A stretch of 64,000 nucleotides of DNA from Streptomyces sp. MspMP-M5 (lineage in GTDB: Bacteria; Actinomycetota; Actinomycetes; Streptomycetales; Streptomycetaceae), in contig NZ_KB891962.1 in NCBI RefSeq assembly GCF_000373585.1, forward strand, positions 124,001 to 188,000. Reading direction: 5' to 3'. A program made the position numbers and the translations under genes. Shown here one piece after another: positions 821 through 15,228 of this stretch. The first letter of the stretch is position 1. Every line of letters begins with the position of its first letter. Below the pieces are notes generated by a model. That model did not search any database, had not been told where the DNA came from, and was given only the letters and a program-made list of their open reading frames with translations.

Positions 821-1264
821 TCAGTCTGGGGTCGTCTCGATGAGCAGGCGAATACCGTCGATCAGCGCCTGCGCCTGCCCATCGGGCCAGTCCGCGATCC
901 GGCCCGCAAGGTGCCGGGTCAGCGTGTTGCGCAGCCCAGTGACCGTTGCGCGGCCCTTGGGCGTCAACGCGAGCAGGGTGGCCCGGCCGTCGCAGGGGTC
1001 GGGGCTGCGCTCGAGCAGACCCGCGCTTTCGAGCCGGTCGGCATAGCGACTTGCGCCGGATCGGTCGATGCCGACCTCGTCGGCCAGCCGCGCCGCCGAT
1101 TGCGGTCCGAGTCGAGCCAGCCCACTGAGCACCGGGTAGGTCTGACGATCGACACCCGCCGGTGCCGCGTCGAGGACCGCGTCGTAGAGCGCGCTCCGGT
1201 TGCGCCGCAGCAACAGCTGTCCCAGCGCTTGCTCCAGGTCCCGTGCCAAATCCGTATTCGCCAT
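821..1264 (-). CDS. MarR-family transcriptional regulator
   Basis: A 147-residue protein, typical MarR length. The winged helix-turn-helix covers about residues 50-105: recognition region IDRSGASRYADRLE, then the wing DPCDGRATLLALTPKG with the conserved Asp-Gly-Arg. I chose the ATG at 1264 because the in-frame extension upstream is Arg/His-rich, unlike the family, and would run into the divergent promoter. The gene faces a small ORF and a drug efflux pump across about 80 bp. That arrangement is standard for a MarR repressor controlling its pump and itself, relieved by a small ligand. The ligand cannot be told from sequence. Confidence 0.88.
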   Translation of the reverse strand: MANTDLARDLEQALGQLLLRRNRSALYDAVLDAAPAGVDRQTYPVLSGLARLGPQSAARLADEVGIDRSGASRYADRLESAGLLERSPDPCDGRATLLALTPKGRATVTGLRNTLTRHLAGRIADWPDGQAQALIDGIRLLIETTPD

Positions 1265-1310
1265 CCAACAATGATACGTGTGAAACGCACGGAATGGGCG
1301 TAGGGTTGTT

Positions 1311-1327
1311 GCGTGCAAGTCGCACGC
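1311..1327. promoter_or_regulatory. Inverted repeat, candidate MarR operator
   Basis: GCGTGC and GCACGC are perfect 6-bp arms around a 5-bp spacer, between the divergent MarR gene and the ORF/pump pair and about 20 bp before the latter's start codons. A weaker CGTG...CACG repeat lies near 1278-1292. Position and symmetry fit a repressor site. Operator function is inferred. Confidence 0.5.
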
Positions 1328-1346
1328 GCTTCTCTTGGGAGGTCTC

Positions 1347-1610
1347 ATGGTCATGGGTCATGTGCTGACCCGGCGGATCATCGGTCAGCCGGACGACGCT
1401 GTGGTCGACATCGCGCGCTACTTACAGCCGTCCGACGTTCAGGTCACCGATGGCGTCGTCAGCGACTACTCGGGGTTCGTCGAGCACATCACACCGGTTC
1501 TCCGCGGCACGTTGCTCGCCCTTGCGGACACCGAGCCTGCGACGCCGATCGGCGCGGGCGAGGTTGTTGAGCGACTGGCGGGCGCGCGGCGGACCGAGGG
1601 GGCGCGGTGA
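1347..1610 (+). CDS. Small hypothetical protein, TTA codon, coupled to efflux pump
   Basis: An 87-residue acidic protein with no family I recognise, no signal peptide and no membrane segment. GGGAGG at 1337-1342 can serve either ATG 1347 or ATG 1353. The stop overlaps the pump's ATG as TGATG, so the two are probably translationally coupled. Codon 26 is TTA (1422-1424), rare in Streptomyces and read by the bldA tRNA, so this ORF and perhaps the pump behind it may be expressed only late in growth. It could be a small accessory or regulatory protein of the pump. No function is assigned. Confidence 0.6.
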   Translation: MVMGHVLTRRIIGQPDDAVVDIARYLQPSDVQVTDGVVSDYSGFVEHITPVLRGTLLALADTEPATPIGAGEVVERLAGARRTEGAR

Positions 1611-3064
1611 TGACCGAGAGGCGTCGCAGCGCGCTGATCGGGCCGGTGCTGGTGCTGGCCACGCTGGTCTCCAGCATCATCAGCTCGTTCGGTGCTCCGC
1701 TGATCCCCACTGTTGCCCGCGCTTTTCATGAGTCGCTGAGCACGGCGCAGTGGTCGTTGACCGTGGCGCTGCTGGTCGGCGCGGCGAGTTCCCCGGTCCT
1801 GGGCCGACTCGGCGACGGTCCGCGACGGCGAGTGACGTTGCTCGGCGGCTTGGCTGTGGTCACGGTGGGCGGTGTCGTGGCTGCGCTGGCAGGCGGCTTG
1901 GGGACGCTGCTCGTCGGCCGTGGACTGCAGGGCGTCGGGCTCGGGCTGGCGCCGTTGGCGATGGCCACCGCCCGGGAAGAACTGCCGCAGGCCAAGGTCG
2001 CGCCGATGATTGCGCTGTTGTCGGTATCGGCGGGGGCCGGCCTCGGCGCCGGTTACCCGATCAGCGGGTTGCTCGCCGAGGCGTGGGGATTGGCGGGTGC
2101 GTACTGGTTCGGCACGATCGTGTCCGGCCTCGCGTTGATCTGTGTCGCCGCAGTCGTACCGTCGAGCGCGGGGCGTAGCGCCCCCAACCGGCTCGACTGG
2201 GCCGGTGCCGTGCTGCTCGCACTGGCGATGGTCGCCGCACTGGTGGCAACGGCCGAGGGGACACAGTGGGGTTGGGGTTCGCCGGCGATCAACGGCCTGT
2301 TGGCCGCCGGGGTAGTGCTCTTCGCGGTCTGGGCCGTGCAGCAGCTGCGCGCCGGGAACCCGCTGGTTCAGCTGCGTCTGTTGCGCCATCCATCCGTGCT
2401 TTCCGCCGATGCCTGTGCCGTGGTGCTCGGCGTCGCGATGTACATGGTGCTTTCGGGGGTGACGGAGTTCGTGCAATCCCCGCGCTCGGGCGGATTCGGG
2501 TTCTCCGCATCGGCCGTCGTGGCCGGCCTCGTCCTCATCCCCCTGTCCATCTTCATGCTGAGCAGCTCCCGCACCCTGCCAATCTTGGTGACATGCATAG
2601 GGATCCGGGCGGTGCTGACGCTGGGCTGCCTCGTAGCCGCGCTGGGCTGCGGATTCTTCGCGGTCTTCCATGGTGCCCTGTGGCAAGCCTTCGTCATGAC
2701 GGGTGTCCTGGGAGTGGGACTGGGCACCACCTTCGCCGCGATTCCCGGTTTGATCGTGCAGTCGATCCCCGCCCGGGAGACAGGTAGCGCCATGGGCTTC
2801 TACCAAGTGGTCCGCTTCACCGGCTTTTCCCTGGGCAGCGCGCTCACCGCCACCATCCTGGCCGCTCATGTCAGCGGCAACGGTCAGCCAACGGTGGGCG
2901 GTTACACCACGGTGCTGTGGTTCTCCGCCGGCTTCTGTGTCCTCGCCGCCGCCCTTGCCTGGTTCCTGCCCGCCCGATCCACCCGGCTCACGCCCGCAGA
3001 GAGCCTGCCCGCCGACGAGATCCGGCTACGGGGACAGACCGACAGCAACGACCTCTCGTCATGA
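1610..3064 (+). CDS. MFS drug/proton antiporter, DHA2-like
   Basis: 484 residues with many hydrophobic segments, consistent with the 14-helix DHA2 branch of the major facilitator superfamily. The loop after helix 2 carries the motif-A remnant GRLGDGPRRR (around residue 65), and helix 5 is Gly-rich (LSVSAGAGLGAGYPISGLL), as in antiporter motif C. Family role: proton-driven export of drugs or secondary metabolites across the cytoplasmic membrane. I chose ATG 1610, which overlaps the stop of the small ORF; a GTG at 1607 is also possible. A divergent MarR gene with an operator-like repeat is the likely regulator. The substrate is unknown. Confidence 0.9.
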   Translation: MTERRRSALIGPVLVLATLVSSIISSFGAPLIPTVARAFHESLSTAQWSLTVALLVGAASSPVLGRLGDGPRRRVTLLGGLAVVTVGGVVAALAGGLGTLLVGRGLQGVGLGLAPLAMATAREELPQAKVAPMIALLSVSAGAGLGAGYPISGLLAEAWGLAGAYWFGTIVSGLALICVAAVVPSSAGRSAPNRLDWAGAVLLALAMVAALVATAEGTQWGWGSPAINGLLAAGVVLFAVWAVQQLRAGNPLVQLRLLRHPSVLSADACAVVLGVAMYMVLSGVTEFVQSPRSGGFGFSASAVVAGLVLIPLSIFMLSSSRTLPILVTCIGIRAVLTLGCLVAALGCGFFAVFHGALWQAFVMTGVLGVGLGTTFAAIPGLIVQSIPARETGSAMGFYQVVRFTGFSLGSALTATILAAHVSGNGQPTVGGYTTVLWFSAGFCVLAAALAWFLPARSTRLTPAESLPADEIRLRGQTDSNDLSS

Positions 3065-4389: not shown

Positions 4390-4590
4390 GGTTGTGCAGT
4401 CGTACTCCGTCAGGGCCGTACACGTTGAGTACACGTAGCCCTGACCGAAGCGGACGCCTTCCCGGGGGAGGAAAGACGTCAGTTTGGTGGCGAAGTTGTC
4501 GACGTTCTCGTAGCCGGCCTTCTTGTGGGTCCACGCGCTCAGTGCAAGGACGCCCTTGTCGTTCTTCGCATGGTGGATGCCGTAGACGTC
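4390..4590 (-). pseudogene. Orphan coding fragment cut by IS630 sequence
   Basis: This stretch encodes protein-like sequence (DVYGIHHAKNDKGVLALSAW ... REGVRFGQGYVYSTCTAL) with no start. Its 5' side is lost where IS630-derived DNA begins near 4585. Its 3' side runs into the signal-peptide gene in another frame. The family is not recognised. It is probably the C-terminal part of a gene destroyed by the insertion. Confidence 0.4.
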
Positions 4591-5016
4591 GGCGCCGCCC
4601 TGCAGTCGGTCCGCGCCGCCCGGCCCGACGGCGCCCCGATCTACATCATTTTGGACGACCGCTCCGCTCACACCGGAGCGGACATCCGCTGCTGGGCAAA
4701 GAAGAACCAGGTCGAGCTGTGCTTCACCCCGGCCTACGCCTCTTGGGTCAACCCGATCGAGGCCCACTTCGGCCCGCTGCGGCAGTTCGGCCTGGCGAAT
4801 TCACACCACCGCAGTCACCCGGCGCAGACCCAGGCTCTGCACCGCTACCTACACTGGCGCAACGCCAACGCGCGCCCTCCCGATGTCCTCGTCGCACAGC
4901 GCAAGGAACGCGCCCGCATCCGCAGCGAAAAGGGCATCCGCTGGGGCGGACACCCCTCGCCACCGCGGCATAAGGGACGCCCCACGGTAGAACCGATCGG
5001 GTTCGGGCGGGAATGA
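4582..5016 (+). pseudogene. IS630-family transposase, C-terminal fragment
   Basis: About 145 codons match the DDE_3 endonuclease end of IS630 transposases: SVRAARPDGAPIYIILDD with an acidic active-site residue, then CFTPAYASWVNPIEAHFGPL with the catalytic Glu, and a basic tail (RKERARIRSEKGIRWGG). The N-terminal HTH and first catalytic Asp are missing, so it is inactive. It abuts a gene fragment on the opposite strand, which marks the insertion or deletion junction. Confidence 0.82.
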
Positions 5017-5167
5017 TCCGGGTCAGTAGGCGCCCGGTGCGGTGCGCGCTGGGAGGCAGCGCCAATGCGCCCCTGCACGGGAGTACCGCCCGCCCCCTGG
5101 ATGCCGCCACCCTGGCCGGTAATCGATGGGGCCACCGCACCCCGCACGCAACGAAAGGGGTTCCGTC

Positions 5168-5722
5168 ATGCGCCTGCTCAACACCAAGAGAATCGCACCC
5201 GCCCCGGCGGTCGCGGCGATGCTGCTTGGCGCCGCCTTCCCCCTTGTGGGGCCAACGGTCGCGGCGGACGCATCGGTTCTCGACCTCAGTTGCCGGGGTG
5301 CGACGCAGGTGACGTACGACCCCGGCCTGACCCTGACGCCTCAGCGTGTCCACTTTCACGCGGTGAACCAACTCACCAGCTGCACCTCGCCCAAGGACCC
5401 CACGCTGACCAGCAGCCAGCCGTACATCATCGACGGCGACCTCGTCCTGTCGTGCGGGACTCCGCTGGACAACGGGCCGGCCACCCAGACCATCACCTGG
5501 AACAACGGCAGGTCCAGCACCTTCACCGGCTCGTTCACCACCTCGTCGGTCGGCGGTGTGCTGGTGGACACCTTTGTCGGCAAGGTGACAGCCGGCGAGT
5601 TCCAGGGAGACTCCGCCGAGCTCGTCTTCGACGAGTCCCAGCGGAATATGGCGCAGTGTGCCCAGCCCGGCGGGCTGAAGCGAGAGTCCGGGGTCCTCAG
5701 CTTGACCGTCCAGGAGCTGTAA
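5168..5722 (+). CDS. Secreted hypothetical protein
   Basis: 184 residues. ATG 5168 lies about 8 nt after AAAGGGG. The N-terminus is a Sec signal peptide: basic RLLNTKR, hydrophobic stretch, cleavage likely after AADA. The mature part is Thr/Ser-rich and beta-strand-like, with four cysteines (LSCRG, LTSCTS, LSCGT, AQCAQ) that could form two disulfides outside the cell. It resembles uncharacterised exported Streptomyces proteins, and I assign no function. It ends 60 bp before the CDPS-P450 gene on the same strand. Co-transcription is possible, but a role in that pathway is unsupported. Confidence 0.8.
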   Translation: MRLLNTKRIAPAPAVAAMLLGAAFPLVGPTVAADASVLDLSCRGATQVTYDPGLTLTPQRVHFHAVNQLTSCTSPKDPTLTSSQPYIIDGDLVLSCGTPLDNGPATQTITWNNGRSSTFTGSFTTSSVGGVLVDTFVGKVTAGEFQGDSAELVFDESQRNMAQCAQPGGLKRESGVLSLTVQEL

Positions 5723-5782: not shown

Positions 5783-7735
5783 ATGAGTGAACCGCTCCTC
5801 AGTACCACCTTGACAGGCTTCGAGGCGCTGCCCTTCTGCGAGAACTGCCGCAGCGTCTTCGAACGCGGCGACCATCTGCTGATCGGCGTCAGCCCTGGGA
5901 ACAGCTATTTCACCCATCAGCGGATAGCTCAACTCGTGGCCTGGGCGAGGGAGTTCTTCGCAGCAGTGGACGTCGTGTACGCCGATCTGCAGGTCGAAGC
6001 CCAGTTCATGGCCTGCGGCTACCCTGCCGAGCAGGCGCTGCGTCGCGCCGCCAAGGAGGTCAAGGCCACGTATCGGCGGATTCACCGAGGCGTCCTGGAG
6101 GCGGATCGCAGCCGTGTACGGATCCACGCGCTCTCGGATTTCCTGTCTCACCCCGCCTATCGGCGACTGGGCCGGGCCGTCCGTGAGGCGCTGACTGGTG
6201 ACCGAGAGTTCCGTGAGGCCACCGAGGGCATGGCCCGGTCCTTCCTCAAGGCCCGGCTCGACCAGGGGCTCGCCCCCTCCGCAGAGCAAGTCGCCACCGG
6301 CGTCGAGTACATCGCGGCCGAGCTGCCGTTCCTCCTGAACACCCCGGCGCTGCTCGACGTCCCGTCCTCCGTCGCCTGCTACCACGTCGAACTCCACGTC
6401 ACTGCGGTGCTGTACGGCCGCGAGGGGGGTCTTCGGGCGGTCCCCGAGCAAGGCTACGCCGTAGTGCGCCCGGTGAGCCGACCGCAGACGGCGCTGCCTG
6501 ATCCGTCGACCACCCATCAGATGGAGAGCAGGATGACCACGACTACGCAGCCCGAGGCCGCCTTCCCGCTCTCCCGGCGCGGCGACGTCCTCCCAGAGCA
6601 GGCACACCTGCTGTGCGAGAAGCATCCGGTTGCCAGGGTCCGCACGATGACTGGGGACGTAGCCTGGCTGGTCAGCAACTACGCCCTGGCCAAGCAGGTC
6701 CTGGAGGATGAGCGGTTCAGTCTCAAGGACACCGCCAACCCAGGAGTGCCCCGTCAATACGCGCTGACCATCCCACCGGAGGTGGTCAACAACATGGGCA
6801 ACATCAACAGCGCTGGGCTGCGCAACGCCGTGATGAAGACCCTCTCGCCCCGCGCCGACAAGGAGTTGGCCGGCTGGCTGGAGACCGAGGCACACCAGCT
6901 CATCGACCGCCTCGTCGAGCAGGGCGCCCCGGGCGAGCTGCGAGACGGCTTCACCCAACCGTACTCGGCCGCCTTGCACTGCCGCCTGCTCGGGATACCG
7001 ACCGACGACTGGCGCCGGCTGATGTCCGGCATCGACGTCGCGTTCATCACCAGCCCCACGCCCTTCGAGGGGGCTGCTCACAACTGGTACAAGGACCTTC
7101 GCTACATGCTCGATCGGCTCAACGCCGACCCCGAGCCGACCGAGGGCCTGCTCGGCCGCTTCGTCGAACTCCGACGCTCCCCGGACGTCTGCGACCAGGT
7201 CAGCGACGAGCTGCTGGCCACCGTCGCCCTTTCGCTCTTCGGCGCGGGTGCGGTCTCCACCTCCTCCTTCCTGCTGCACGCGATCATCGCCCTGGCGCAG
7301 CGGCCCGAACTGGCCGAGCGCATCCGCCGGGAGCCGCCCGTCATCGACCGGGCGGTGGACGAGCTCCTCCGCTACAACCTGTCGATCGGTGACGCCCTGC
7401 CCCGGCTTGCCCTGGCGGACGTCCAGATCGGCGACGTGTTGGTCAGGACGGGAGAGCTGGTCCTCGTGCTGATCGAGGGGGCCAACTACGACCCGGAGGT
7501 CTTCCCCCACCCGGAACGGATCGACTTCGACCGGGAGCCCAACCCGCACCTCGCCTTCGGCGCGGGACGGCACTTCTGCCCTGCCTCGGCCATCGCCCGC
7601 ACGCACGCGCAGATCGCACTGACAGCACTGGTGCAGCGGTTGCCGGAACTACGGCTGGCCCTGCCGGTCGAGCAACTCGTCTGGCGACCGGGCTTCATCA
7701 AGCGCCTCCCGGAACGGCTTCCGGTCCTTTGGTGA
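5783..7735 (+). CDS. Cyclodipeptide synthase fused in frame to cytochrome P450
   Basis: One uninterrupted 650-codon frame; ATG 5783 is 8 nt after GGAGGT. Residues 1-230 are a CDPS, which uses two aminoacyl-tRNAs to make a cyclic dipeptide. Visible are nucleophile S37 and N40 in GVSPGNSYF, Y176 and E180 in YIAAE, and Y200-H201, matching the NYH subfamily (AlbC S37/N40/Y178/E182/Y202/H203). Residues 231-250 are a Pro/Ser/Thr linker. Residues 251-650 are a P450: I-helix GAGAVSTS (487-494), ExxR at E527-R530, heme loop FGAGRHFC with C599. The usual C-helix HxxxR reads SxxxR (S343, R347). P450s paired with CDPSs oxidise or couple diketopiperazines, often tryptophan-containing ones. That product class is inference here. 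Family members are normally two separate genes. Confidence 0.92.
   Translation: MSEPLLSTTLTGFEALPFCENCRSVFERGDHLLIGVSPGNSYFTHQRIAQLVAWAREFFAAVDVVYADLQVEAQFMACGYPAEQALRRAAKEVKATYRRIHRGVLEADRSRVRIHALSDFLSHPAYRRLGRAVREALTGDREFREATEGMARSFLKARLDQGLAPSAEQVATGVEYIAAELPFLLNTPALLDVPSSVACYHVELHVTAVLYGREGGLRAVPEQGYAVVRPVSRPQTALPDPSTTHQMESRMTTTTQPEAAFPLSRRGDVLPEQAHLLCEKHPVARVRTMTGDVAWLVSNYALAKQVLEDERFSLKDTANPGVPRQYALTIPPEVVNNMGNINSAGLRNAVMKTLSPRADKELAGWLETEAHQLIDRLVEQGAPGELRDGFTQPYSAALHCRLLGIPTDDWRRLMSGIDVAFITSPTPFEGAAHNWYKDLRYMLDRLNADPEPTEGLLGRFVELRRSPDVCDQVSDELLATVALSLFGAGAVSTSSFLLHAIIALAQRPELAERIRREPPVIDRAVDELLRYNLSIGDALPRLALADVQIGDVLVRTGELVLVLIEGANYDPEVFPHPERIDFDREPNPHLAFGAGRHFCPASAIARTHAQIALTALVQRLPELRLALPVEQLVWRPGFIKRLPERLPVLW
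6523..6535 (+). promoter_or_regulatory. Internal ribosome-binding site and ATG of the P450 half
   Basis: GGAG at 6523-6526 lies 6 nt before an in-frame ATG at 6533, which begins MTTTTQPEA, a plausible start for a stand-alone P450. The P450 could therefore be made both as part of the fusion and as a free 400-residue protein. This also suggests the fusion arose by loss of the CDPS stop codon. Confidence 0.5.
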
Positions 7736-8011: not shown

Positions 8012-8200
8012 TCACCGCGCGCTGTGCGGTGCCCAGCGACGTGTCATATCGGGCAGGCTCTCCATGTTGCGATCGCCGTCGTTGGTGTCCAGGACGGTGA
8101 AACCGTGGCGCTCATAGAACGCCCGGGCGCAGATGCGCGCGATCACGGCTGCATCTGCCGCTTCCGCGCATCGGATCCGAGCCCTGCCGTCCTCACTCAC
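8012..8200 (-). pseudogene. GNAT acetyltransferase with internal deletion
   Basis: 62 codons join a GNAT N-terminus (ARIRCAEAADAAVIARIC) directly to a GNAT C-terminus (FYERHGFTVLDTNDGDRNME). A working enzyme needs about 150 residues, and the acetyl-CoA-binding core strand and P-loop are missing. The frame is kept across the join, so a single clean deletion is likely. Not expected to be catalytic. Confidence 0.7.
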
Positions 8201-8268
8201 GTCGGGAACCTACAAGGCCAGCAGCGCCCCGCCCACTCCCTTCCCTTGCTTCGGATGCGCCTGTTAGC

Positions 8269-8301
8269 CTGCTCCATACCAAACCTTTTGGTATGGAGCA
8301 G
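8269..8301. promoter_or_regulatory. Perfect 33-bp palindrome, candidate TetR operator
   Basis: Arms CTGCTCCATACCAAA (8269-8283) and its exact reverse complement (8287-8301) flank a 3-bp CCT spacer. It ends 10 bp before the TetR start codon and overlaps the probable promoter and 5' leader. It has no T-run, so an operator for the adjacent TetR protein is more likely than a terminator. Confidence 0.75.
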
Positions 8302-8311
8302 AGGGGGCAGG

Positions 8312-8854
8312 GTGAGCGTGGAGAGATCGGCATGGCTGGACCAGGGCTTGACGTTGCTGGCGGAGCAGGGCGCCCCGGCGGTCACGCTGGAGCGACTGTG
8401 CGAGCGCATGGGCATGTCGAAGGGCGCCTTCTACCACCACTTCGGATCGATGCCGAAGTATCGGACCCGATTGCTCGACCACTTCGAAGCCAAGTGCACC
8501 ACGGCGATCATCGATGGGGTGGAAGCATCCGACATGCTGCCGGCCCGGGAGCGGCTGGACAGGCTCATGGCGGAAGCGACCAAGGCCGCCAGTCCCTCGC
8601 TGGAGGTAGCGATGCGGGCCTGGGCGAAACAGGATCCGGTAGCGGCGAGGGTGCAGGAGCGTGTCGACGCGACCCGCATCGGATATCTGCGTGATCTGTG
8701 CGAACAGGCCGGTCATGACAGACCGGACCAAATGGCCAAGCTGCTCTATCTGATGTTGGTCGGGGCAGAGCACCTCATGCCCCCGCTCCCGAAATCAGAG
8801 CTGCGCGACATGTACGAGCTGCTGATGCCGCTCCTGGACCGGCCGGCCTCCTGA
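8312..8854 (+). CDS. TetR-family transcriptional regulator
   Basis: 180 residues. The N-terminal HTH is clear: VTLERLCERMGMSKGAFYHHFGS, residues about 25-50. The C-terminal half is an all-helical ligand-binding domain. GTG 8312 lies just after GAGGGGG; GTG 8318 is an alternative. The extended frame upstream crosses the palindrome and is not protein-like. It is followed 49 bp later by a DUF6463 membrane protein on the same strand, so it probably represses a two-gene operon through the 33-bp palindrome. The ligand is unknown. Confidence 0.88.
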   Translation: MSVERSAWLDQGLTLLAEQGAPAVTLERLCERMGMSKGAFYHHFGSMPKYRTRLLDHFEAKCTTAIIDGVEASDMLPARERLDRLMAEATKAASPSLEVAMRAWAKQDPVAARVQERVDATRIGYLRDLCEQAGHDRPDQMAKLLYLMLVGAEHLMPPLPKSELRDMYELLMPLLDRPAS

Positions 8855-8903
8855 CTTGGCCGGCGATCGAGGTGGGTCCCTCATCCGGAAGGAACACAGC
8901 GTC

Positions 8904-9401
8904 ATGAACGCCTCCGCACGCCCGGAATTCTGTAAGTCCAACGCCAGAGGTCTCCGCCTCTGGGTGCCCCGCCTGATGCTCGCTGCCGCTGTGGTGCACA
9001 TGATGGTGGGCATCATCGCCGCGTACTCGCACTGGAGCGGAATCATCTCCGACGGGCTGTGGAACACGGTCCGCAATGACGACGACGCCCGCATGACGGC
9101 CCTGTGGTTCATGATCAGCGGGGTTGCCTTCTTCGGTCTCGGGCTCCTTGCCAGGAGGTCCGTGATCGCCACGGGCACGGTGCCTACGGAGACCGGATGG
9201 ATCCTGCTGGCACTTGGAATCCCGGTAGCAGTGCTGGAACCCGTCTCGGGCGGCTGGTCGTTGATCGCCATCGGTGTGCTGGCAGTTGTGGCGTCGCGGC
9301 GTGACCGTTCCACGACGGGCTTCGGCCGGTCGGCCGCTCAGCGAACGGGAGGGACAGCCGCGTCGGCCGCGGCCTCATGGAATACCGCCCCCTCCGAATA
9401 A
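8904..9401 (+). CDS. DUF6463-like integral membrane protein
   Basis: 165 residues. ATG 8904 follows GGAAGGA. Four hydrophobic segments are visible: LMLAAAVVHMMVGIIAAY, ALWFMISGVAFFGLGLLA, GWILLALGIPVAVLEP and SLIAIGVLAVVA. Family members are small four-helix proteins of unknown role. The Ser/Ala/Thr-rich tail after residue 135 looks non-conserved. Being next to and downstream of a TetR gene suggests it responds to the same signal. Confidence 0.75.
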   Translation: MNASARPEFCKSNARGLRLWVPRLMLAAAVVHMMVGIIAAYSHWSGIISDGLWNTVRNDDDARMTALWFMISGVAFFGLGLLARRSVIATGTVPTETGWILLALGIPVAVLEPVSGGWSLIAIGVLAVVASRRDRSTTGFGRSAAQRTGGTAASAAASWNTAPSE

Positions 9402-10161: not shown

Positions 10162-10326
10162 TCAGTCGTTGCGGTAGTTCGGTTCCTTGATCAGCAGATG
10201 CTGACGTCCGGTGACCTCCGGTCCGTAGACGGTGTCGAGCCAGTCGTGCGCGGCCACCGGCTCCAGAGCGATCGACACCGCGCCGTCGTAGGCGTGGAAG
10301 TGCTCTGTGACGGGCGATGGGGTCAC
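10162..10326 (-). CDS. Tiny ORF coupled to indigoidine synthetase
   Basis: 54 codons from a GTG overlapping the synthetase stop as GTGA, so translation would be coupled. The product is mildly acidic, without signal peptide or membrane segment, and contains EHFHAYDGAVSIALEPVAAH and a Tyr/Asn-rich tail ending NYRND. I recognise no family. It may be a small accessory peptide or the stump of a larger decayed gene. Its coupled start and the hairpin behind it argue that it belongs to the operon. Confidence 0.45.
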   Translation of the reverse strand: MTPSPVTEHFHAYDGAVSIALEPVAAHDWLDTVYGPEVTGRQHLLIKEPNYRND

Positions 10327-13300
10327 TTGCCGAGGCGGGTGCGAATCGCCGAGACGAGTTCGGCGATGCCCTGCTCCTTCAGCACGCTGTAGTGGTCGGC
10401 GTCCAGGTCGACCACCGTCGGGGAAGCGGCGGAGTAGCCGGAGCTGCCCTCGATGAACGAGTAGTCGTCCCCGGTGGCCTTGAAGAGGGTCACGGGCGCG
10501 TTCACGCGCCGCTCGGCCAGCTCGCGGAAGCTGTACTCGAACTCGTACGTTTCCCCGACGATCCGCGTGATCCTCCGGATCAGCTGCTTGCCCAGGGTGG
10601 GGAGCAGACCGTGGACGAAGGACACGAAGCTTTCCTCGTCCCGTGCCGCCTTGAGGCAGTGATTCAAGGCGGGCCCACTGATGGAGCCTGTGAAGACGGA
10701 GAAGAGGATGGTCACGTATGCCGGATTGCGGTACGAGGCATCACGCCCGTATTGCCTTCCGTCGGCCTGGCGGACCTTCGGATTGCCGGGGCAGATCAGC
10801 AGCAGGTTTTCCACCTGCTCGCCGGACTGCTCCAGCTGCCAGGCCGCTTCGAAGGCGACTCGGGCGCCGAAGGAGTAGCCCCAGAGGGTGTAGGGCCCCT
10901 CGGGCTGTACACGCCGGATCTCCGCCACGTCGGCGGCGGCCATCTCCCGGATGGTCGGGTAAGGGTGCTCTCCGTCGTTGATTCCGCATGCCTGTACCCC
11001 GTAGAACGGCCGGCCGAGCCCGGTGCGCCCACCCAGGAGGCGGAGGTTCATCGGATAGCCGCCCAGTCCCGGCCAGCAGAACACCGGGCTGCCCGCGCCC
11101 TGGTGCAGCGGCACCAGCCGTGCGGCTGGATCGGTCGAGTTGCCTTCGATCCGGGCCGCCAGCTCGGCCAGTTTCGGGCATGCGAAGACGACCTGGAGCG
11201 GGAGCTGCGTGCCGAACTCGCGGTTGATCTTGTTGACGAGCGCGACAGCGGTCAGCGAGTTCCCTCCGGCGGCGAAGAAGTCGTCCTCCACCGAGACGTT
11301 CTCGTATTTGAGCGCCTTCCCCCAGGCTTCGGCGAGCCACCGTTCGTGCCGCGTGGCAGGAGCCACGTACGGGGTCGCACTGCCCGCGGACCGCACGTCC
11401 TGGGAGGCGGCGAGGGCCTTGACGTCGACCTTCCCGTTCGCCGTCAGCGGCAGCCGGTCCAGCACCAGGACCCGGTTGGGGATCATGTAGTCGGGCAGGA
11501 CCTGGGCCAGCTCGTCCTTGATGATCTCCGCCGGGCCCTTCATGTGGACGGTGTCCTCGTACATGCCCTCGCTGCGGCTCTGCTCCTGGCTCACCTTGCC
11601 GCCGAGGAAGAAATACGAGGCGCCTGACCGGATGCCACAGGAGGCCAGGATGTCGTCGATGCGGCGGGCGGCCGGAAGCGGGTGACCGGTCTTGGAGCTG
11701 TAGCCCGAGGACATGAAGCCCAGCCCGAGGCCGTTGCGCTGCAGGTGGTGCAGCTTCTTGCCCAGGCTGATGTACTCCAGCCACGCCTCGTCGGCGCGGC
11801 TGACGGCGGTGATGCCGAAGCTCGCCCGCTCGTACACCTGCTGGTTGATGGCGATCACGTGCTTGGTCAGCAGCAGGGCGTCCGAGATGCGCTCCAACCG
11901 CCCGTCGGTGTAGCGGTATTGACCGGCCGGCAGGTCTGCCATCCGCCCAGGGTGGGCCTGGACGAAGACCTCGGTGGGGTCGGGATGCGGGGCGCCGTCG
12001 CCGGGGCGGATGTCGAACGTTCCGAGGTAGTAGTCCTCGGAGGCGACGTCCAGGCTGTCCTTGACGGACGGCCGGTGGCCCAGGGGCCGGATGCTGAGCC
12101 CGTACTCGGGCAGCACTTCCTCGAACACGCCCACCATATGCCCGGTCTCGAACTCCAGCACCTCCTGGATGTTGTTCTTGTACACCGGCTCGATCGCGCG
12201 CCTCTTGCCGGCGAAGTGCACCGACAGATACGGGAGATACGGGCCGGATCGCTTCGCGGACTCGCCGACCCGCACCAGGGTGTGGTCCGCGGGGTGGTAG
12301 TAGTACACGCCTGCATCCAGGCCGGCCACGCCTCCTGTCTCCAGGTACAGCTGTGTCGCGTACAGAGCCCCGGGGGAGGCGTAGGCGTACTTCGGCAGCA
12401 GCCGCTCGTCACTGCGGTACGCGCCGAACCAGCGCAGCATCTCGCCGAGTTCGGCGAACGTCAGCTCATCGAGGCCACGAGAGAGGCCGCCGCCCTTCGG
12501 CTCGGCGAGGAGTTCCAGCAGGTCCGCCCGGGTGACCTGGCCGCCGTCGTAGAAGCGGTAGGTCTTGCGGGCGAAGACCTCCCCGCGCTGGCGCTGCGTC
12601 TCCTGCCTGCCGGGCAGCTCCACGACCGTGCGGCCGGCGAGTTCCTCGCGGTCTCTCACACCAGGGTCGGACAGCTGCGCCTTCACCTGGAGCCTGCTGG
12701 CCTTCGACTGGTGGTGGGTGCCGTGGTTCCCCTGGTCCATCAGAGCTGCCTCCTTGGGGTTCAGCTCGATGCAGGCCACCAGGCTCTGAAAGCCGGTCCG
12801 CTCGTCGTCGGTGACGAGCGCGGCCGCATGCCGCACCCAGGGATGCTCCTCGATCGCCAGCGCGATCTCGTCCAGCTCGACGCGGTAGCCGCGCAGCTTG
12901 ACCTGGTTGTCGGCCCGGCCCGCGAACTGGATGGTGCCATCAGGGTTCCAGTACGCCAGGTCGCCGGTGCGGTAGAGCCGCTCGGTCGGGACGAACGGCG
13001 AGGGTATGAAGCGTTCCTGGGTCTGCTCGGGGCGGTGCAGATAGCCGCGGGCCAGTTGGATGCCGCCGATGTACAGCTCGCCGATCTCCCCGATGTCCAC
13101 CGGCGCCCGGTTCCGATCGAGGATGAAGCACTGGGTGTTGTCGACCGGCACGCCGATGGGGACCGTGCCCGGGCCGTCGTCGGCCGCGTCCGGGTCGACC
13201 AGGCACGCGGTGGCGTTGATGGTGCACTCGGTCGGCCCGTACAGATTGACCAGTGACGCCCACGGGAGATCGGCGGCGAAGGCGCGTGCGAGCCGCCAGG

Positions 13301-14153
13301 AGAGGGCCTCACCGCCGGAGAACACCCGTCGCAGCGTGCTGCACCGGTGGAACTCCTCGGTGTCCAGCAGTGCTTGGAGCAGGGTGGGCACGCACTGGAG
13401 CGCAGTCACCTCGTGCTTGACGATGGTTTCGATCACGGCCTCGGGGTCCCGGTAGATGCCCGGAGTGCCCATGACAACCTGGCCGCCTACCGCGGGGGCG
13501 AGGATCTCCCACTGCGCCGCGTCGAAGCTCATCGGCGTCTTCTGGAGCACCGTGGTGCCCTTGCCCAGGTGCCCGTAGGCGTGCATCCAGCGCATCTGGG
13601 ACATGATGCTGCGGTGCTCGATCATCACGCCCTTCGGTCTGCCGGTACTGCCGGAGGTGTAGATGACGTAGGCCAGGGCGTCCGGCCGCACCATCGCCGG
13701 GCTCATCCCGGCATGGTCTGCCGCGTCGGCCAGGGTGACGACCCGCGTCCCCGGCGGGGCGAGCTCCGCGACGCGCACAGCCAGGTGGGCCTGGGTGACG
13801 ATCACGCGGGTGCGGCTGTCCTCGATCATGTAGCGCAGCCGCTCTTCCGGGTACTCCGGGGACAGCGGCAGATAGGCGGACCCGGCGAACAGGATGCCCC
13901 ACACCCCGGTCATCAACTCCAGGGACGGCTCGACGAACAGGCCCACGCAGTCATCGGAGCCCACGCCCAGATCCCGTAGGCAGGCGGCCAGCCGACTGCC
14001 TGCCTGCTCCAGTTCCCGGTAGGTCAGGTGCTGGTCGTCGCAGACCACCGCGATGGCCTCGGGCTGCGCCTCGGCCTGCTCCCCGAGCAGGCCCGTCAGG
14101 CAACCGCCCGGATGAGTGTGGTGTATTCGTGCGCTGAACGGTGCGGTTGCCAT
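10323..14153 (-). CDS. indC: Indigoidine synthetase-type NRPS (A-Ox-T-TE)
   Basis: 1276 residues, close to characterised BpsA/IndC enzymes. Adenylation domain: YTSGSTGRPKG (165-175), YGPTE (305-309), YRTGDLA (394-400). A flavin oxidase domain is inserted near 480-870, between late A motifs (TYRFYDGG, SSGYSSKTGHPLPAARR); the A10 Lys follows in LPLTANGKVD (901-910). Carrier domain S966 in GGNSL. Thioesterase S1094 in GYSFG, D1229/D1230 and H1254. In this family two L-glutamines are activated, cyclised, oxidised and dimerised to blue indigoidine. ATG 14153 overlaps the exporter stop (TGATG). A 4'-phosphopantetheinyl transferase elsewhere must activate it. No indA/indB-type genes are adjacent. 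Confidence 0.95.
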   Translation of the reverse strand: MATAPFSARIHHTHPGGCLTGLLGEQAEAQPEAIAVVCDDQHLTYRELEQAGSRLAACLRDLGVGSDDCVGLFVEPSLELMTGVWGILFAGSAYLPLSPEYPEERLRYMIEDSRTRVIVTQAHLAVRVAELAPPGTRVVTLADAADHAGMSPAMVRPDALAYVIYTSGSTGRPKGVMIEHRSIMSQMRWMHAYGHLGKGTTVLQKTPMSFDAAQWEILAPAVGGQVVMGTPGIYRDPEAVIETIVKHEVTALQCVPTLLQALLDTEEFHRCSTLRRVFSGGEALSWRLARAFAADLPWASLVNLYGPTECTINATACLVDPDAADDGPGTVPIGVPVDNTQCFILDRNRAPVDIGEIGELYIGGIQLARGYLHRPEQTQERFIPSPFVPTERLYRTGDLAYWNPDGTIQFAGRADNQVKLRGYRVELDEIALAIEEHPWVRHAAALVTDDERTGFQSLVACIELNPKEAALMDQGNHGTHHQSKASRLQVKAQLSDPGVRDREELAGRTVVELPGRQETQRQRGEVFARKTYRFYDGGQVTRADLLELLAEPKGGGLSRGLDELTFAELGEMLRWFGAYRSDERLLPKYAYASPGALYATQLYLETGGVAGLDAGVYYYHPADHTLVRVGESAKRSGPYLPYLSVHFAGKRRAIEPVYKNNIQEVLEFETGHMVGVFEEVLPEYGLSIRPLGHRPSVKDSLDVASEDYYLGTFDIRPGDGAPHPDPTEVFVQAHPGRMADLPAGQYRYTDGRLERISDALLLTKHVIAINQQVYERASFGITAVSRADEAWLEYISLGKKLHHLQRNGLGLGFMSSGYSSKTGHPLPAARRIDDILASCGIRSGASYFFLGGKVSQEQSRSEGMYEDTVHMKGPAEIIKDELAQVLPDYMIPNRVLVLDRLPLTANGKVDVKALAASQDVRSAGSATPYVAPATRHERWLAEAWGKALKYENVSVEDDFFAAGGNSLTAVALVNKINREFGTQLPLQVVFACPKLAELAARIEGNSTDPAARLVPLHQGAGSPVFCWPGLGGYPMNLRLLGGRTGLGRPFYGVQACGINDGEHPYPTIREMAAADVAEIRRVQPEGPYTLWGYSFGARVAFEAAWQLEQSGEQVENLLLICPGNPKVRQADGRQYGRDASYRNPAYVTILFSVFTGSISGPALNHCLKAARDEESFVSFVHGLLPTLGKQLIRRITRIVGETYEFEYSFRELAERRVNAPVTLFKATGDDYSFIEGSSGYSAASPTVVDLDADHYSVLKEQGIAELVSAIRTRLGK

Positions 14154-15091
14154 CACAGCTCCCCTCGGCCGGACGGTACGTGGCGGGACGCATGAGTGAC
14201 GGGCGGCTCTTCGGCCGGCTCCTGGACACTGCGCCGCTGCCTGGGCTGCGCCAGGACAACAGCCGCGACGACGGCCGCGGCCCCGGTCATCTGCAAGGGC
14301 GTCAACGCCTGGCCCAGCACGACGTATCCGAGGACCGTCGCGGCCAGCGGGCTGGCGAACCCCAGGATCGACACCGCCAGCGCGGGCAGCCGTCCAATGC
14401 CCCGGAACCAGATGGCGTAGGCGAACAGCGCCCCGATCACGCCCAGGTAGGCGAACCCGGCGATGTTCGTGCCGGTGATGCGGCTGGGCAGCCCTTCGAC
14501 GACCAGCGTGACCGGTGCCAGGACGAGACCCCCGACAGTCAACTGCCAACCGGTGAACGTCACAACGCCCACACCGTCCGGCCGGCCCCACCGCTTGGTG
14601 AGCACGATGCCGGACGCCATGCAGACCGCGCCCGCCAGTCCGGCCAGGACGCCGACGGCATCCACCCCCGCCTGCGGCTGCAGGACGAGCAGCGCCACGC
14701 CCAGCACACCGAGCAGGCACGCCGCCAGCTGCATCGGCCGGATCCTGTCCTTCAACAGGAACGCCGCCAGCAGCAGCACGAGCATGGGCTGAAGCGCAAC
14801 CACCAGTGCGGCCACACCGCCGGGCAGGTGGTACGCGGCCACGAACAGCAGGTAGAAAAACGCGCCGATGTTCAGCACCCCCAGCACCAGGGCGCGCCAC
14901 CACCACACCCCACGCGGCAGCACCCGGCCGAACGCGAGCAGCACCAGCCCCGCCGGCAGCGCCCGCACCGTGGAGGCCAACAGCGGTCTGTCCGGCGGCA
15001 GCAGCTCCGTCGTCACCAGGTAGGTACTGCCCCAGACCGCCGGAGCCAGCGCCGTCAGGGCCGCGTCGAGCGCCAGCCGGTTGCCCTTCAC
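14153..15091 (-). CDS. EamA/DMT-family transporter coupled to indC
   Basis: 312 residues with about ten hydrophobic helices in two EamA repeats (ALTALAPAVWGSTYLVTTEL; LAGAVCMASGIVLTKRWG). GTG 15091 follows a GGGGG ribosome site. Family: drug/metabolite exporters in the cytoplasmic membrane. Its stop overlaps the NRPS start by one base, and both lie behind one promoter, so export of indigoidine, a precursor or a by-product is a reasonable inference. The C-terminal tail is charged (QRRSVQEPAEEPP). Confidence 0.9.
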   Translation of the reverse strand: MKGNRLALDAALTALAPAVWGSTYLVTTELLPPDRPLLASTVRALPAGLVLLAFGRVLPRGVWWWRALVLGVLNIGAFFYLLFVAAYHLPGGVAALVVALQPMLVLLLAAFLLKDRIRPMQLAACLLGVLGVALLVLQPQAGVDAVGVLAGLAGAVCMASGIVLTKRWGRPDGVGVVTFTGWQLTVGGLVLAPVTLVVEGLPSRITGTNIAGFAYLGVIGALFAYAIWFRGIGRLPALAVSILGFASPLAATVLGYVVLGQALTPLQMTGAAAVVAAVVLAQPRQRRSVQEPAEEPPVTHASRHVPSGRGEL

Positions 15092-15228
15092 CTGACCCCC
15101 GCAACCATGACCGGCCCGGCAGCTGCCACGACGGATTGCACGAATATGGGCACGATGAGCCCTCCGATTCGGGCGGGGCTAGCTAACGCCCTGCGTCCTC
15201 CGGCCCACACGGCGTGAACCCGCACCGG

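Follow-up and report, generated by a model that had tools for sequence, protein, structure and literature searches.

A cyclodipeptide synthase and a GutD/PtmB-type cytochrome P450 in one reading frame of a Streptomyces genome: an orthologue of the gut and ptm gene pairs with a probably displaced stop codon

In the gutA-gutD and ptmA-ptmB pathways, cyclo-Trp-Trp (cWW) is coupled to guanine or hypoxanthine (PMC13122648). GutA and GutD of Kitasatospora azatica, a cyclodipeptide synthase (CDPS) and a cytochrome P450, are 72.6% and 86.7% identical to PtmA and PtmB, respectively, and their expression in S. albus yielded cWW together with its guanine and hypoxanthine adducts (PMC13122648). The main product of CDPS 70 from Streptomyces sp. 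NRRL B-24484 is also cWW (PMC5816076). Both enzymes can also occur in one polypeptide: CDPS 71 of Streptomyces roseochromogenes DS 12.976, reported in 2018, combines a ~240-aa CDPS with a ~410-aa P450, and its isolated CDPS part was active, forming mainly cyclo-Trp-Tyr (PMC5816076). A fusion such as the initial annotation proposed for the locus described here thus had a published precedent.

The DNA analyzed (the window) is a stretch of 64,000 nucleotides from Streptomyces sp. MspMP-M5. On its forward strand, a single ORF of 650 codons (5783..7735) runs, as sequenced, without an internal stop and encodes a product of 650 aa with a predicted mass of 72.2 kDa. Residues 1-232 (5783..6478) constitute the CDPS domain, which matched Pfam PF16715 (residues 13-230, E 2e-76), TIGR04539 (262 bits against a cut-off of 45), and the PDB structures of Rv2275 and AlbC. 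The P450 domain (6533..7735, 400 aa, about 44.5 kDa when read from the internal ATG at 6533) ends with a TGA at 7733-7735; it matched Pfam PF00067 over residues 471-619 (E 5e-24) and, over its whole length, the PtmB structure 8yxt (residues 256-650, 755 bits), and solved homologues cover both domains. Direct counting located S37, N40, Y176, E180, Y200, and H201 in the CDPS, and the ELLR (ExxR) motif with E527/R530 and the FGAGRHFC motif with the haem cysteine C599 in the P450. Fold, profile matches, and these catalytic residues (S37/N40, Y176, E180, and Y200-H201) place the CDPS in the NYH subfamily. A complete NYH-type CDPS and a complete P450 in one uninterrupted frame, as a bifunctional fusion requires and as the initial annotation had described, were therefore confirmed, together with every residue it quoted.

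The closest genes belong to two-gene loci of Kitasatospora and related strains, whose P450s are 81-88% and whose CDPSs are 61-70% identical to the respective domains. The window P450 shares about 85% identity with PtmB, and its score against PtmB, far beyond chance, is well above that against CYP121 (about 447 bits). In the P450 tree, it was nested within the Kitasatospora clade (100/99 support), among unfused genes, with its place read by eye. Orthology to characterized members, the haem cysteine, and the ExxR motif assign it to the GutD/PtmB type. In sequence, CDPS and P450 are the orthologues of gutA-gutD/ptmA-ptmB, whose two-gene pathway is known. One of the compared loci (L004) comes from strain NRRL B-24484; its CDPS is 66% identical to that of the window, and this locus presumably carries CDPS 70 itself. 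The window genome contains one CDPS and about 40 P450s. Its P450 groups with Kitasatospora-type genes, while the genome itself was placed in another genus (g1 vs g14), and a partial DDE_3 transposase remnant (4525-5016, forward strand) lies directly upstream of the CDPS locus; because of these two features, acquisition by transfer is suggested.

Further upstream are a MarR regulator (821-1354, reverse strand) and an MFS transporter (1607-3064, forward strand). The ORF is preceded by a gene for a small protein (5126-5722, forward strand) that probably carries a signal sequence and gave no Pfam match; the genome encodes a paralogue 54% identical to it at another place, and a small number of other genomes contain weaker relatives. 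Downstream, a TetR regulator (about 8024-8854) and a DUF6463 membrane protein (8856-9401) are encoded on the forward strand, followed on the reverse strand by an NRPS-like ORF (10323-15104) in which AMP-binding, PP-binding, and thioesterase domains were recognized. On visual inspection, the two parts of its adenylation domain flank a stretch resembling an oxidase, an arrangement that may correspond to that of single-module indigoidine-type synthetases. No other typical diketopiperazine-tailoring gene was found within about 2.5 kb on either side of the pair, in agreement with the initial annotation, and a promoter scan found nothing.

The region between the two domains was compared with the junctions of Kitasatospora-type orthologues whose P450s are at least 80% identical. 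All 30 of these junctions separate two genes, which bears out the earlier statement that CDPS and P450 genes are usually adjacent but separate. In 26 of the 30, the CDPS gene ends in GCC-TGA, and the stop is followed by 29-250 nt of spacer, at the end of which stand a GGAG-type ribosome site and the start of the P450. The window retains all three elements on the same strand: GCCTGA at 6496-6501, GGAG (the presumed P450 ribosome-binding site; GGAG or AGGAG precedes the P450 start in orthologues) at 6523-6526, and the ATG at 6533, with both GGAG and ATGACCACGACT kept at the P450 start. In a blind MAFFT alignment, the window GCCTGA fell in the columns of the relatives' last codon and stop; its TGA (6499-6501) thus sits at the site of their CDPS stop but is one base out of frame. 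CCGCAG and GCCTGA lie 8 bases apart in the window; where a relative also has CCGCAG, the distance is divisible by 3. Measured from the TGA as the former stop, the window's spacer has 31 nt, which falls in the shortest class of relatives (29-36 nt). When the linker was shuffled with its dinucleotides preserved, GCCTGA arose in 4% of cases, so the hexamer alone would be weak evidence and not decisive; the former-stop reading is put forward because position, spacer length, and ribosome site agree. The simplest reading of the junction is a net loss of one base (modulo 3) just before the CDPS stop.

The linker residues, V-S-R-P-Q-T-A-L-P-D-P-S-T-T-H-Q-M-E-S-R, take on a different meaning in this light. 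Because the out-of-frame stop, the spacer, and the ribosome site align with the relatives' junctions, the in-frame junction (6479..6532, residues 233-250) is read from the alignment as the CDPS 3' tail plus the former intergenic spacer, now translated. The notion of a designed linker is not supported, since its residues come from in-frame translation of what is spacer in the relatives, and the ribosome site and ATG of the P450 are still in place.

Fusions were sought at the level of the genus, family, class, and Kitasatospora type in overlapping sets of 393, 395, 395, 70, and 390 genomes. The window was the only complete CDPS-P450 frame among the matches listed in those searches, which could miss fusions with distant P450s; among these matches, covering several hundred CDPS genes, an intact fusion of the window's type was found in no other genome, and the fusion is accordingly not conserved in the lineage among the cases examined. 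In the Kitasatospora-like genus, the frames of all matched CDPS genes (33/33) measured 239-388 aa and could not accommodate a fusion. Two further in-frame junctions occurred among the several hundred CDPS genes, both in loci broken elsewhere: in genome G286, the frame continues from the CDPS into the opening portion of a P450 whose own frame is broken, and in G163, an intact P450 follows on from the second half of a frame-broken CDPS. Both retain the P450 ribosome site and ATG. Comparison of G163 with G252, two Streptomyces genomes with 96% identical junctions (L119 and L080), revealed that one deleted base turns overlapping genes into one frame. The three junctions are scattered on the tree; those of G286 and G163 arose independently of the window's, one of them clearly through a single-base deletion.

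Other long frames were rejected as fusions. In the long frames around CDPS genes of G584, G684, G629, G694, G685, G459, G905, G036, G140, G198, G440, G828, G692, and G650, the CDPS lies at the C-terminal end of the frame and the extra length is upstream reading frame. For the long frames around P450s of G301, G333, G081, G134, G162, G308, and G386, the CDPS is in another frame, and for G241, G259, and G051, the stretch examined contained no CDPS. In Streptomyces loci such as L023, L053, and L080, the end of the CDPS gene frequently overlaps the P450 start, by 4, 11, or 20 nt, which suggests translational coupling, unlike the spaced Kitasatospora type.

Pocket positions of the CDPS were taken from PMC5816076, where a V/I-A pair at P1 positions 3 and 4 marks the Trp-accommodating group cW2X. 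The P1 pocket of the window CDPS reads L-G-V-A-L-F-L-A, with V65 and A67 as this pair, and cyclo-Trp-Xaa is the likely product predicted by analogy. The domain carries 7 changes at sites invariant in 30 compared clade members, the others having at most 2. Two of the changes are in the substrate pockets, F184L (P1) and P205H (P2); of 44 relatives compared, all or almost all have F at position 184 and P at 205. Since these changes lie in the pockets, the product may differ from cWW, perhaps in its second amino acid. The P450 showed no excess of unusual substitutions relative to its clade. For both domains, pN/pS ranked lowest or close to lowest in the clade; the CDPS and P450 domains are under purifying selection, and for this reason there is no sign of decay.

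We consider it probable that the locus is a gutA-gutD/ptmA-ptmB-type operon of Kitasatospora type, residing in a Streptomyces genome, in which a net one-base deletion has put the CDPS stop out of frame. A deletion near the CDPS 3' end would displace the conserved GCC-TGA, and the CDPS frame would then continue across the former intergenic spacer and enter the P450 in frame. The CDPS part would use Trp-tRNA, with Trp or another aromatic amino acid probably serving as the second substrate, to give cyclo-Trp-Xaa. From the orthologues, the P450 would be expected to oxidize the indole and couple guanine or hypoxanthine to the Trp cyclodipeptide, giving a guanitrypmycin-like product, with ferredoxin and reductase supplied from elsewhere in the genome. 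A stand-alone P450 made from its own ATG at 6533, besides any fusion, is likely because GGAG and ATG are retained; it is possible that the fused protein is made in cells, which should then contain a 72-kDa fusion and a 44-kDa P450. The one-gene pathway envisaged in the initial annotation is better read as the known gut/ptm two-gene pathway with its first stop lost.

The missing base could also lie in the data: the genome may really have two separate genes, with one base near 6490-6496 lost from the draft. The assembly is a draft of 120 contigs, one base would suffice, all close relatives have two genes, and both other in-frame junctions are in loci with a further frameshift, as poor sequence or decay would give. 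On the other hand, for every P450 match listed from the same assembly, the open frame spans 391 aa or more, so that small indel errors look rare, the site GGCGCTGCC contains no homopolymer run, and the neighboring 1593-aa NRPS-like ORF is intact. Because the listed P450 frames of the genome are open and the site is not homopolymeric, the sequence favors a real mutation, and we regard an error as unlikely, while giving it real weight. Rather less probable is a fresh bifunctional enzyme, created by the one-base loss, in which leaky internal initiation would also give free P450 and the pocket changes F184L and P205H would shift the cyclodipeptide.

If the mutation is real, it might indicate that the pathway, once transferred into this genome, is being lost. 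The transposase remnant, the 7 unusual CDPS substitutions, and the broken loci around the other in-frame junctions fit such a decay, but both domains are complete, their catalytic residues are intact, and pN/pS is not raised, which makes it improbable. Most doubtful is the view of the initial annotation that the ORF is a selected bifunctional enzyme whose fusion channels the cyclodipeptide to the P450. Its two intact domains with all catalytic residues and low pN/pS would suit this view, as would the known fusion CDPS 71 with its independently active CDPS part (PMC5816076). Against it stand junction residues that reproduce the relatives' spacer, ribosome site included, and the absence of a second intact fusion of this type among the genomes examined. 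Nor is channeling through a fusion needed, since the close two-gene orthologues work and make products as separate proteins (PMC13122648); substrate channeling is not supported here.

In this probable reading, the locus represents a two-gene pathway already known, with the first of its stops shifted by one base relative to the frame; its interest lies in the junction and does not extend to a new enzyme type. The loss of one base where cistrons are tightly spaced can mimic a fused biosynthetic enzyme in sequence data, and a comparison of the junction with orthologues, looking for an out-of-frame stop and a retained ribosome site, is needed before channeling is claimed. Provided that the frame exists in the genome and is translated, it offers a ready natural test of whether tethering CDPS and P450 changes the output; if the fusion is a fresh bifunctional enzyme, it would give a natural snapshot of how genes fuse in a tRNA-dependent pathway. 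The unusual pocket residues of its CDPS make the window member a candidate for a different cyclodipeptide.

Among described systems, gut24283 (GutA/GutD, Kitasatospora azatica) and ptm (PtmA/PtmB, K. mediocidica) have an orthologous CDPS and P450 in identical order, and the window P450 is about 82-85% identical to the K. mediocidica P450 gene. In both systems, however, the genes are separate and the CDPS stop is in frame, whereas the window's stop is one base out of frame and its CDPS differs at the two pocket residues. Rv2275/CYP121 of the mycocyclosin pathway of M. tuberculosis shares the two-gene logic of CDPS and P450, and its P450 is clearly related, at 446 bits; its substrate is cYY and the coupling is an intramolecular C-C bond formation. 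The window P450 is much closer to PtmB. CDPS 71, compared with the window by its published description alone, is likewise one CDPS-P450 polypeptide.
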